Shown one piece after another: positions 20,539-38,983 of a stretch of 43,113 nt of DNA (position 1 is its first letter; every line of letters begins with the position of its first letter). The translations under genes and the position numbers were made by a program. The DNA comes from Gammaproteobacteria bacterium (GTDB taxonomy: Bacteria > Pseudomonadota > Gammaproteobacteria > GCA-2400775), in the NCBI GenBank assembly GCA_016765075.1, contig JAESQP010000037.1:1-43113 (forward strand), read 5' to 3'. The notes beneath the pieces were generated by a model, which was not told the DNA's origin, made no database searches, and saw nothing but the letters and a program-made list of their open reading frames with translations.

Positions 20539-20738
20539 CTTAAGTAACCTCTGATGTGTCATGGACGATTATCTTATGATCAAAATATTCGGATTCGCTA
20601 ATAGCAGGCGCTTTAGGCGAGGCGCAAATCGCACGTAATAGTGGGGTGCGCCCTGAGGAAGTGCCTTGGGGTGTAACGCAGAAGCTGGGTATTTTGATCA
20701 TAAGATAATCGTCCATGACACATTAGTAGTTCCTTAAG
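20539..20738. repeat. MITE-like element with 33-bp perfect terminal inverted repeats
   Basis: Arms starting TGTGTCATGGACGATTATCT (20555-20587) and their exact complement (20690-20722) extend outwards, with mismatches, to CTTAAG on both sides. The inside holds a P1 relative, GCGCCCTGAGGAAGTGCC then TTGGGGTG (about 20647-20673), so an older palindrome appears to be nested in this one. It carries no coding potential worth noting. It lies between the peptidase and nudF genes. Confidence 0.85.
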
Positions 20739-24540: not shown

Positions 24541-25533
24541 ATGGATAACATTTTGATAGATTTGTCCGCCAAGAGCCTGCCTGCGCGCGAGCGTAGCGGC
24601 ATGTTTCAGCAAGGTATTGTTACACTTGCCCTCTTTTTTCTTGGTGTCTCTGGCGCCCAGGGTAAAGACACTGTCGCAATATTCCAGCCTGATTTGCGCG
24701 CGCCCTATGATCAAGTGTTTCGTGTCATTATCAATGGCATTAAAGAAACAGCTGATTTCAAAGTAAGCATAAGAAAAATTTCCAGTAATGACAATCAACA
24801 AACGCTATCTGACTGGCTGGATAAAAAAAATATAAAAGCAATTATCGCCCTTGGCCACCAAGGACTTGAAGTAGCTAAAATTGTTGCTGGTGGCAGACCT
24901 GTTTTGGTGGCTGTTTCGTTGCTTTCAGCAGATATTCTTGAACACGATAACATCGGCGGCATTAGCCTTGCCGCAGATCCTGAAGCGATTATTATCGAGC
25001 TTAAACGCTTAATCCCTGCTGTAAAGAAAATATTTGTCGTCTATAGCCCAATACATAACGACTGGCTGATGCAGTATGCTGCTAAGGTAGCAGAAAGTAA
25101 TGGTATTGAGCTTAAATCGATTGCGGTATCAGACCTTAGGCAAGCGGCTATTCAATATAAGACAGTGCTTAATGAGCTTGAGACCGAGCGCAGTGCACTT
25201 TGGTTGCCATTAGACCCCATTACTGTGGAGAATCGCACGATTTTACCGTTAATACTGCGTGTTACCTGGGATCGAAATTTAACGCTGATATCCAGTAATC
25301 CGTTACATGCCAAACGCGGCGCGCTATTGTCTGTCTTTCCTAAAAATAGGCAGATGGGACATAATATTGCCAACACAGTAAACAAATGGCTGAGTACGGG
25401 TAACCCAGACTTTGAGGTAAAGCTTCTTATGGATTTAGGTTTTGCTATTAATATTCGAACTGCAGCACATTTGGCTATCAATCTCGATAAAGAAGACCTC
25501 AAGCGCTACGATCTTAAGTTCCCTCAAAACTAG
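24541..25533 (+). CDS. ABC-type periplasmic substrate-binding protein (PF04392-like)
   Basis: A 330-residue protein with a signal peptide (about 21-41, ending VSGAQG/KD) and a two-lobed binding fold like the ABC_sub_bind family: TVAIFQPDLRAPYDQVF, IIALGHQGLEVAK and AVKKIFVVYSPIHNDW. It ends with a lobe containing GFAINIRTAAHLAINL. No permease or ATPase gene is adjacent. The next rightward gene is a membrane histidine kinase, so a sensory role is plausible. The start may be 24541 or ATG 24601; both have weak SD. The ligand is unknown. Confidence 0.75.
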   Translation: MDNILIDLSAKSLPARERSGMFQQGIVTLALFFLGVSGAQGKDTVAIFQPDLRAPYDQVFRVIINGIKETADFKVSIRKISSNDNQQTLSDWLDKKNIKAIIALGHQGLEVAKIVAGGRPVLVAVSLLSADILEHDNIGGISLAADPEAIIIELKRLIPAVKKIFVVYSPIHNDWLMQYAAKVAESNGIELKSIAVSDLRQAAIQYKTVLNELETERSALWLPLDPITVENRTILPLILRVTWDRNLTLISSNPLHAKRGALLSVFPKNRQMGHNIANTVNKWLSTGNPDFEVKLLMDLGFAINIRTAAHLAINLDKEDLKRYDLKFPQN

Positions 25534-25536
25534 CCC

Positions 25537-25929
25537 GGATAATTCATGAATAACGCAATTTCTCACTTGGCTCTTGACCCTAATCCCCAGATAGAAACAC
25601 GTATACTACACAAGCTCTTGATTTCACAGCAAAACAAAAAATAGCCGCCGAACCTATGGGTGCGACTGATATTTTTTGGTTCACTGTGAAATCAATATCT
25701 TGCACATTACCTCGCGTTTCTATCTGGGGATTAGAGCTTGATATTACAGTAGATTATCTTTAATTGACCGTACCCACCAGTACGACACTCAATCAGATAA
25801 TCTACTGTAATATCAATTACCTGCGCGCCCTGAGGGTTGTCGCTAGACAACCCGAGGAAGTATACCCCTCAAGGGGGTACTAAAAAGAGCTCTTGGGGTG
25901 CAATAATCTCGCGTATTCATGAATTATCC
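25537..25929. repeat. Composite of stacked palindromic elements
   Basis: Outer arms GGATAATTCATGAATAACGC (25537-25556) and GCGTATTCATGAATTATCC (25911-25929) enclose 353 bases. Inside are (a) arms starting TAATCCCCAGATAGAAACAC at 25581-25601 and 25713-25733 with one mismatch, with inner TTGATTTCACAG/CTGTGAAATCAA; (b) perfect 22-base arms starting TTGATATTACAGTAGATTAT at 25738-25759 and 25795-25816; (c) a P1 copy in reverse, about 25818-25905, including CTCTTGGGGTGC. It fills the whole gap between the binding-protein gene and the kinase gene; the kinase frame is open back into it. Confidence 0.85.
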
Positions 25930-25944
25930 AGGCTAGAGTATTTA

Positions 25945-27717
25945 ATGAGGGCATTACTAAGAATATTACTACCACACAATAGAGAGTTTCGACGCCAGAT
26001 AATGTTATTAGTGTCAGTCGGCATTCTTGTGTTAGCGCTGGTCTCTTCGCTATTAACTGCGTGGGTTACCAGTAAAAATTCACGTCAGCAGCTTATTGAT
26101 CAAGGCTTACAGCTGACCCAGAGTTTTGCTGAGCAAAGCGTATTAGCACTATTATTTGAATCTGCCGAAAACGCAGAAGATTTGGTTGCCAGCACCTTAT
26201 CTTTCCCAAATGTAATGTATGTTAAGTTATTGACACATGATGGAAAAATGCTGCTGCATGAAGGGGATGATTCGGTTGATAAACTCAAAAATATTCAGGC
26301 AAATGTGCGCGGAAGGCTGGGCTTCGAGGGTTCTTTTCAAGCCCCCCTTGAGGGGCGCACGCTGCACCCCGAGAGCCTGTTACCCGTGCCAAGCACGGAG
26401 CAGGCTCCGCGAAAGCGTAGGGGTAGGATGCCTGAAGTCGTTGAGCAGGGCGCGGTTTTACTCTGTGAAACGGATATCTACCTCTGTTTTCGCGCCCCTG
26501 TGTTTGATAGGCAGGCAGACGAACAAATAGTAGCGTTTATTGGTAGTGATCAAGCTCCAAATTTATTGGGGTTTGCCGACATAGTGATGAGTAAGGCTGA
26601 GTTAAATTCCCAACGTATAACGACTATTTTGCAATATACCCTAGTGTCTTTTGTGCTGGCCATTATCATTTTGCTTGTTTTACAAAAAATATTATCCCGT
26701 ATCGTGACGCCTTTGAGTGAACTGTCTGCATTAATGCACAAGCAAGACGTAGGGGAAAAGACATCACGAGCGAAGATTAGGGGGCCAGTAGAAATTCGAG
26801 ATATGGCACATGCTTTTAACTCTATGATGGATGTATTGGATGAACGCGATCTGCGTCTACGTAATCAAAATGACAATTTAGAGAACAAAATAAAGGAACG
26901 TACACGTGACTTGCGTGATGCGCGTGATGCGGCAATTCAGGCAAGCAAACATAAGTCAGCCTTCCTCGCCAATATGAGTCACGAGCTAAGAACACCTATG
27001 AACTCTGTACTGGGTTATACCAGTATGGTGCTTGAGGATGCTCGTAGCGATCATTTTAATCTTGCAACTTGTGTCGAAGACCTCAGCCGAGTCGACAATG
27101 CGGGTAAGCATTTGTTGTCAATGATTAATAATATTCTTGACCTGGCAAAAATTGAAGCCGGGCGCATGGAATTAGAATGTGGCACGGTTGATATTAAACA
27201 ATTGGCAGGTCAGGTTGAAGATAGTGTATTACCCCTGATTACGGATAAAAATAATAAATTAGTAGTGGACGTGGTGTCTGATGTCAGCTCTTTGTCGATG
27301 GATGCTGTTAAGCTGAGACAAATTTTAATTAACTTGCTGAGTAACGCCGCCAAATTTACCGAACAAGGCACCATAACACTGAAAATCGAGCACAGTATTG
27401 ATGCATTGTTTTGTTCTGTTGTTGATACCGGTATGGGCATGGATGAAGAACAGCAGCAGCGAATATTTCAAGCGTTTAAGCAGGGGAATATGACAACCAC
27501 CAAGGAGTTTGGTGGCACCGGTTTAGGTTTAACGATTTCGCAACATTTGTGTGCCTTGATGGGCGGCACAATTAAAGTGAAAAGTGACTTGGGAAAAGGG
27601 TCGGCGTTGTATTTCACATTGCCACTACCGTTGCAAGAGCACCAGTCAGAAGAAGCTCAGTTGGTAGGACTGGTGGGTAAGTATAGGCTGCCAGAGGAGA
27701 GAGCTTTGTCAAGTTGA
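25945..27717 (+). CDS. Membrane sensor histidine kinase with repeat-derived segment
   Basis: A 590-residue hybrid-less kinase. TM1 is near 20-41, the extracytoplasmic domain spans about 42-229, TM2 is near 230-248, then come HAMP (about 249-304), a coiled coil and HisKA with His346 in FLANMSHELRTPMNSVLGYT. The ATPase domain has LINLLSNAAKFT, DTGMGM and GGTGLGLTIS. No receiver domain is fused and no regulator is adjacent. ATG 25945 is chosen because the 36 codons upstream are encoded by the palindromic composite; those codons are also open. Residues about 126-161 (including TLHPESLLPVPSTEQAPRKR) are encoded by P1/P2 sequence and are unusually Pro/Arg-rich for this domain. The preceding binding protein may be its ligand sensor. 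Confidence 0.85.
   Translation: MRALLRILLPHNREFRRQIMLLVSVGILVLALVSSLLTAWVTSKNSRQQLIDQGLQLTQSFAEQSVLALLFESAENAEDLVASTLSFPNVMYVKLLTHDGKMLLHEGDDSVDKLKNIQANVRGRLGFEGSFQAPLEGRTLHPESLLPVPSTEQAPRKRRGRMPEVVEQGAVLLCETDIYLCFRAPVFDRQADEQIVAFIGSDQAPNLLGFADIVMSKAELNSQRITTILQYTLVSFVLAIIILLVLQKILSRIVTPLSELSALMHKQDVGEKTSRAKIRGPVEIRDMAHAFNSMMDVLDERDLRLRNQNDNLENKIKERTRDLRDARDAAIQASKHKSAFLANMSHELRTPMNSVLGYTSMVLEDARSDHFNLATCVEDLSRVDNAGKHLLSMINNILDLAKIEAGRMELECGTVDIKQLAGQVEDSVLPLITDKNNKLVVDVVSDVSSLSMDAVKLRQILINLLSNAAKFTEQGTITLKIEHSIDALFCSVVDTGMGMDEEQQQRIFQAFKQGNMTTTKEFGGTGLGLTISQHLCALMGGTIKVKSDLGKGSALYFTLPLPLQEHQSEEAQLVGLVGKYRLPEERALSS
26341..26432. repeat. P1/P2 repeat inserted in frame in the kinase gene
   Basis: GCACCCCGAGAG (P1 edge, 26363-26374) and P2 with ACCCGTGCCAAGCACGGAG then CAGGCTCCGCGAAAGCG. 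A CCCCCTTGAGGGG palindrome just before it also occurs in the reverse P1 at 25862-25880. The P2 frame used here (PSTEQAPRKR) differs from the one used in ispG ([10 protein letters not shown]). Exact boundaries are uncertain by about 20 bases. Confidence 0.8.
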
Positions 27718-38775: not shown

Positions 38776-38983
38776 ACTAGGGAGCCTTTGATTAATTCTG
38801 GGACAGCGAGATTGTGACTGAAATTTTTCAGGCCGAGACGCGAATCGCACCCCAAGAGTACTTCCTCAGGAATGCTAACGCATCCCTGAGGAAGTACTCT
38901 TGGGGTGGCAAGATTAGCAACGAAGAGCTGGAAAATTTTAGGTGCAAGATCGTGTTCCATGAATTAATCAGAGGCTCCTTAGT
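38776..38983. repeat. 208-base palindromic element, GGAGCCTCTGATTAATTC family
   Basis: Ends ACTAGGGAGCCTTTGATTAA and the complement of ACTAAGGAGCCTCTGATTAA. The P1 palindrome CACCCCAAGAGTACTTCCTC, 23-base perfect arms at 38848-38870 and 38885-38907, forms the centre, with ATGC-TAAC-GCAT at the tip. The sequences between core and ends (GAAATTTTTCAG and CTGGAAAATTTTAG) also match inversely, so the whole unit can form one long imperfect hairpin. It is the most complete member in the window. Short open frames through it are incidental. The gap 38984-39069 shows no gene. Confidence 0.9.

Follow-up and report, generated by a model that had tools for sequence, protein, structure and literature searches.

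The window analysed here is a stretch of 43,113 nt from genome G000 (95.6% complete, 163 contigs), which was compared with its relatives G001 to G003; contigs are given as C-numbers. Within it, an ABC substrate-binding gene (24541-25533; PF04392) is followed by a histidine-kinase gene starting from the ATG at 25945 (PF00512, PF02518). A total of 411 nt lies between the stop codon of the binding protein, at 25533, and this ATG, and 403 nt of these were found to be insertion (160 + 164 + 75 + 4 = 403 inserted bases), which leaves 8. An earlier, sequence-only reading had placed a stack of four palindromes at 25537-25929. These limits proved too narrow, the true ones being 25530-25936, as both the ends and the two copies of CTAG had been missed. 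CTAG is a rare word in the window as a whole, with 59 sites outside the element against the approximately 166 expected from base composition.

Four arm pairs were indeed found, namely an outer pair (25530-25552/25914-25936; 23 nt, 96%) and three further pairs at 25580-25601/25713-25734 (22 nt, 95%), 25611-25654/25659-25702 (44 nt, 80%) and 25738-25759/25795-25816 (22 nt, 100%). They are real palindromes, far above chance, both by arm score and by RNA folding. The four best non-overlapping arm scores were 22, 20, 19 and 18, against a best score of no more than 11 and a fourth best of no more than 8 across 200 dinucleotide shuffles, and the 407 nt folded as RNA gave -178.8 kcal/mol against -89.2 +/- 5.4 kcal/mol for shuffles (z -16.5; 0 of 100 as stable). 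The mobile elements represented number three rather than four (O, A and P1), as one of the arm pairs, H, belongs to O.

The outermost of these, element O, is a CTAG-type MITE (25534-25932, plus strand) of 160 bp without its inserts, with ends CCCGGATAATTCATGAATA and TATTCATGAATTATCCAGG that match the PF13701 transposon L247. It is flanked by a target-site duplication of CTAG, the left copy of which (25530-25533) contains the TAG stop codon of the binding protein and the right copy of which lies at 25933-25936. Inside O is element A, a 159-bp MITE (25578-25736, plus strand) with ends CCCTAATCCCCAGATAGAAAC and its own inner hairpin (25611-25702), bordered by the 5-bp duplication CTTGA which it made (25573-25577 and 25737-25741). 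The central hairpin of O, termed H (25738-25816, plus strand), is formed by the perfect 22-bp arms given above with a smaller stem in its loop. P1, a 75-bp palindromic repeat, lies inside O on the minus strand (25827-25901), bordered by CTGCGC and AATAATC and lacking a duplication, and corresponds to the reversed P1 copy reported previously. The kinase frame is also open for 36 codons upstream, as had been noted, to a TTG at 25837; this extension into the outer arm and P1 looks incidental, because in three relatives the gene starts at the position of ATG 25945, 8 nt past the stop. The features by which MITEs are recognised were found in structure (terminal inverted repeats, small size and no transposase gene), in insertion (the CTAG duplication of O, the CTTGA duplication of A and an empty orthologous site in G001-G003) and in the presence of multiple copies at unrelated sites.

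Simpler forms of the stack were identified elsewhere. Removal of 164 bp for A with one CTTGA and of 75 bp for P1 leaves 168 bp including both CTAGs, and an O with neither insert is present at G000:C136:11187-11349, which is identical to this pruned window copy at 132 of 168 positions with no gaps. Element A occurs by itself at G000:C82 (92-93% identical, with TAGAG on both sides), and identical 5-mers flank 11 of the 13 A copies examined; these 13 comprise C37, C82 and eleven others with both ends (nine with identical 5-mers), and four further stretches showing one end only stand outside this count. Across the class, 7 of the 369 genomes contain the A ends. P1-type matches are numerous elsewhere in G000 and occur also in G001, G003 and G004, with none in G002, and the core was found without P1 at C110, C39 and C147. 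In G001, G002 and G003 the site is empty, with the two genes 8 nt apart from stop to ATG, and the joined site of the window, TAG-AGTATTTA-ATG, has this same 8-nt gap. No match to the binding protein was found in G004 (52% complete). In a separate observation, A is nearly identical between G000 and both G081 and G309, which are of another family, and this suggests that it may have been transferred between lineages.

Judged from these copies, the stack is layered, because simpler copies of O exist, A is found alone and P1 is found elsewhere, with O first, carrying its own hairpin H, followed by A and P1 in either order. The sequence-only reading had offered a relative age order with P1 and the inner pairs arriving with or after the outer one, and it had proposed that separate occurrences of the arm pairs and simpler versions of the locus be sought. 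Both were found, A and P1 each alone elsewhere, and O without inserts at C136 together with the empty site in three relatives. The order stands for A and P1, which are later than O given the copy at C136 that lacks both, but not for H, which came with O. As a separate palindrome family H was dropped, for the two O copies carry it at one and the same offset, and it recurs in related CTAG MITEs from other genera. It is less likely that the simple copies are the result of precise loss of P1 or A.

With respect to P1, Y1_Tnp genes (PF01797) were identified in G000, G001, G003 and G004, with none in G002, a genome that likewise gave no match to the stack. The arrangement of REP/RAYT systems, in which a palindromic repeat lies beside a Y1 transposase gene, was not found for P1; in a motif scan of Y1_Tnp loci, no gene had a complete P1 beside it, and the flanks of these loci gave no support to P1 being driven by a Y1 transposase. 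Its insertion shows no duplication, and the Y1_Tnp loci examined yielded no driver. P1 itself looks modular, because longer copies hold extra inner hairpins. The shortest P1-like unit seen (window position 20674, minus strand) is approximately 27 bp, running from ACACCCC to CAGGGCGC, and a near-perfect palindrome from two P1 units is found at 38847-38908. The kinase gene also has an in-frame insertion of approximately 32 residues (~26300-26410), absent from G001-G003, which consists mostly of palindromic repeat sequence, P1-like and of the GTCAAGCACGG type; palindromic repeats thus enter coding sequence too. At G000:C5:28060-28339 and G000:C69:7613-7887, P1 has the same core position as in the O of the window and the ends differ, which would reflect either insertion more than once at a single site or the exchange of a core already carrying P1.

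A link to a transposase was found in the IS1380 family (PF13701). Both the O-type ends and the duplication are common to O and the PF13701 transposon L247, whose ends are CCCGGATTATTCATGAA. A sister type, B, has the form CTAG-CCCGCATTTCTCACCA ... CTAG, with L235 and L236 as PF13701 partners bearing B-type ends. Allowing up to 2 mismatches, the B-type end was present in 47 of the 369 genomes of the class, the highest number in any one genome being 147 + 142 matches, and a reversed-pattern control for the CTAG ends gave 0 among the matches listed. Of 25 chosen end-bearing genomes, 13 contained PF13701 genes (11 of the 25 over the cut-off). In five of the 14 PF13701 loci tested the gene lies between inverted CCCG... 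ends, these being of B type with CTAG in L235 and L236, variants in L234 and L249 and of O type in L247, and in the other nine it does not. There is also a degenerate copy of 1,736 bp in G046 with CTAG on both sides, all four frame pieces of which match PF13701. G000 itself gave no PF13701 match, and across G000-G004 there was one weak partial match only, in G003, under the cut-off; given the 95.6% completeness and 163 contigs of G000, the source of the transposase is therefore absent, lost or unassembled. For A, both its CCC end and its 5-bp duplication are in keeping with the IS1380 family; among the 14 extended PF13701 loci there was no transposon with A-type ends and no autonomous partner for A. 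The plasmids searched for similar DNA gave no match, and the exact end strings were matched in two viral contigs.

Two further observations were made on these transposons. In L233, L234, L235, L236 and L247, an inverted repeat lies ahead of the transposase start, with its second arm abutting or near the start codon and with arm sequences that differ per copy; it is possible that this forms a hairpin hiding the start. In L211 (G059:C6:4000-6743), a different transposase-like frame, which may resemble the IS110 family, lies between B-type ends spaced 1.8 kb apart.

The sites occupied by the CTAG-type elements are frequently stop codons. For eight of the 13 such elements in G000 (O37, O136, C5, C14, C110a, C104, C81 and C13), the flanking duplicated site holds a stop that closes a frame of at least 100 codons, and one of the five misses, C136b, has flanks too short to pass. 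By comparison, such a frame is closed by 1 of the 59 CTAG sites in the window outside the element (Fisher p 9e-7), by 1 of 18 in the window outside genes (Fisher p 0.0012) and by 3 of 53 at 13 further loci from the genus (Fisher p 3e-5). In other genomes, 9 of 13 long-flank copies are on stops, a figure which has no matched background and comes from genomes of which some are probably higher in GC. The excess may reflect target choice or selection, which cannot be separated here.

For analysis of the core, 13 insert-free copies from six genomes were aligned over 160 columns, comprising two O and five B copies from G000 and six B copies from G056, G103, G182, G218 and G267. The pair count took in neither the six related, insert-bearing copies (C5, C69, C14, C104, C13 and G187) nor any element in which the same ends enclose another core. 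Two-sided changes were seen at 13 of the 22 stem pairs of H and variation on one side alone at none; three pairs are invariant and six deviate only by unpaired cells, with H being 87.1% paired across copies. The whole structure (H and 17 outer pairs) scored 0.341 compared with 0.134 in shuffles and no more than 0.102 when slid, and 0 of 500 shuffles were as high. A profile built from the B core without its ends found the two O copies at 42.5 and 45.5 bits, against 4,200 decoys at no more than 7.1, and because O stands so far over the decoys the two end types, O and B, have one core in common. Homology of the A core to this core was unsupported (no more than 4.0 bits, with decoys up to 7.1); A shares with O and B only layout and length (158-161 bp, with a hairpin at a like offset). 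A second core type of 175-177 bp was also seen between B ends (L212, L213, L215, L218, L219 and L226), having an inner hairpin with varying arms.

Element length (159-160 bp) and hairpin offset (~40/41 bp) are both constant across genera. Selection on the hairpin core through transposition is weakly favoured, whereby the core, as a cruciform or single strand, would allow the two end blocks of approximately 40 bp to meet for the transposase. The full proposal is that a core of approximately 80 bp is selected as a folded structure of fixed length and offset, survives the exchange of ends between two IS1380 subfamilies and acts as an end-joining hinge, with the CTAG target leading it onto TAG stop codons that the duplication then restores, and so permitting spread without gene damage; this we put forward tentatively and with some doubt. 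H may instead be kept by copying and not by selection, with template switching between the arms (quasipalindrome correction) rewriting a mutated arm, a plausible explanation although one that falls short of being probable. Such correction yields two-sided changes without function, and the six of 22 stem pairs that differ between O37 and O136 all do so on both sides; on its own, however, it does not require the constant length and offset, and the copies also contain unpaired cells. Arm-to-arm correction during replication and a hinge role for H are considered about as likely as each other.

As for the locus itself, we consider it very probable that the stack consists of three nested, non-autonomous mobile elements, of which O arrived at CTAG by means of an IS1380-family transposase and A and P1 came later. 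The boundaries, duplications, empty sites, simpler copies and matching autonomous transposons elsewhere were observed directly. First, the 160-bp O, presumably moved by an IS1380-family transposase, would have entered the CTAG containing the stop of the binding-protein gene, where the duplication re-created a CTAG at either end, leaving the protein unchanged. Later, the 159-bp A would have entered the foot of the central hairpin of O, duplicating CTTGA, and P1 would have entered O approximately 31 bp from its right end. The kinase gene, formerly 8 nt past the stop, would thereby have come to lie 411 nt off beyond a strongly structured spacer. The coupling of the two genes has probably been weakened, and transcription of the kinase, if from the old promoter, would now have to cross this folded spacer.

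It is improbable that the stack has instead been retained for a regulatory or terminating role in the host operon; although the fold is very stable, no terminator-like or sigma-70-like site was found in the spacer, no Rfam family matched above its gathering score (two miRNA-family matches were far under theirs), the site is empty in three relatives and the same elements occur at unrelated loci. A single complex element of four palindromes always moving as a unit is extremely unlikely and, for the set of four, already refuted by separate copies, for although composites can persist or travel together (the B-type core in C5 and C69 also has P1 at the same place plus another palindrome), the constant co-occurrence that the sequence-only reading had named as the outcome against it fails, O being found without A and P1, A by itself both at C82 and in other families, P1 in numerous locations and the core without P1 on three contigs.

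The nest of O, A and P1 is ordinary as a kind, and it is the conserved hairpin core and the landing on stop codons that are the points of note. The locus shows cleanly how small mobile elements can be layered and their layers put in order. A widespread family, unlabelled in the papers searched and with ends in 47 of 369 genomes, is now tied to a transposase family. With its hairpin core, the idea that a transposon is maintained for its shape can be put to the test, and landing on stop codons offers a simple reason why such elements may grow common harmlessly.

In the open-licence literature searched, there was no occurrence of the end strings and no paper was found in which IS1380, target site duplication and CTAG appear jointly. 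The available portions of PMC3281130, PMC4133298 and PMC9330008 do not describe these CTAG elements, and those of a MITE review (PMC10969869) make no mention of IS1380, CTAG, stop codon or nested. P1 resembles REP/REPIN repeats in being short, palindromic and present in many copies (portions of PMC3116915, PMC3733652) and differs in that no Y1 transposase gene was found with a complete P1 adjoining. The QMITE2 elements of Coxiella, as far as described in the same portions of PMC10969869, are like the stack elements in size, in inverted ends and in transcripts with stable stem-loops, and differ in having other ends and duplications of 7-9 bp. The closest likeness of O is to IS1380-family (PF13701) MITEs, which are short and non-coding with terminal inverted repeats starting with CCC and duplications of 4-5 bp; IS1247, a member of this family, has a listed duplication of 5 bp (in a portion of PMC3281130). 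As with these, transposons with the same ends and CTAG are found in other genomes of the class. Unlike the known IS1380-family MITEs, O has no transposase in G000 and carries a covarying hairpin in a fixed core common to two end types, and the CTAG MITEs often lie on stop codons.
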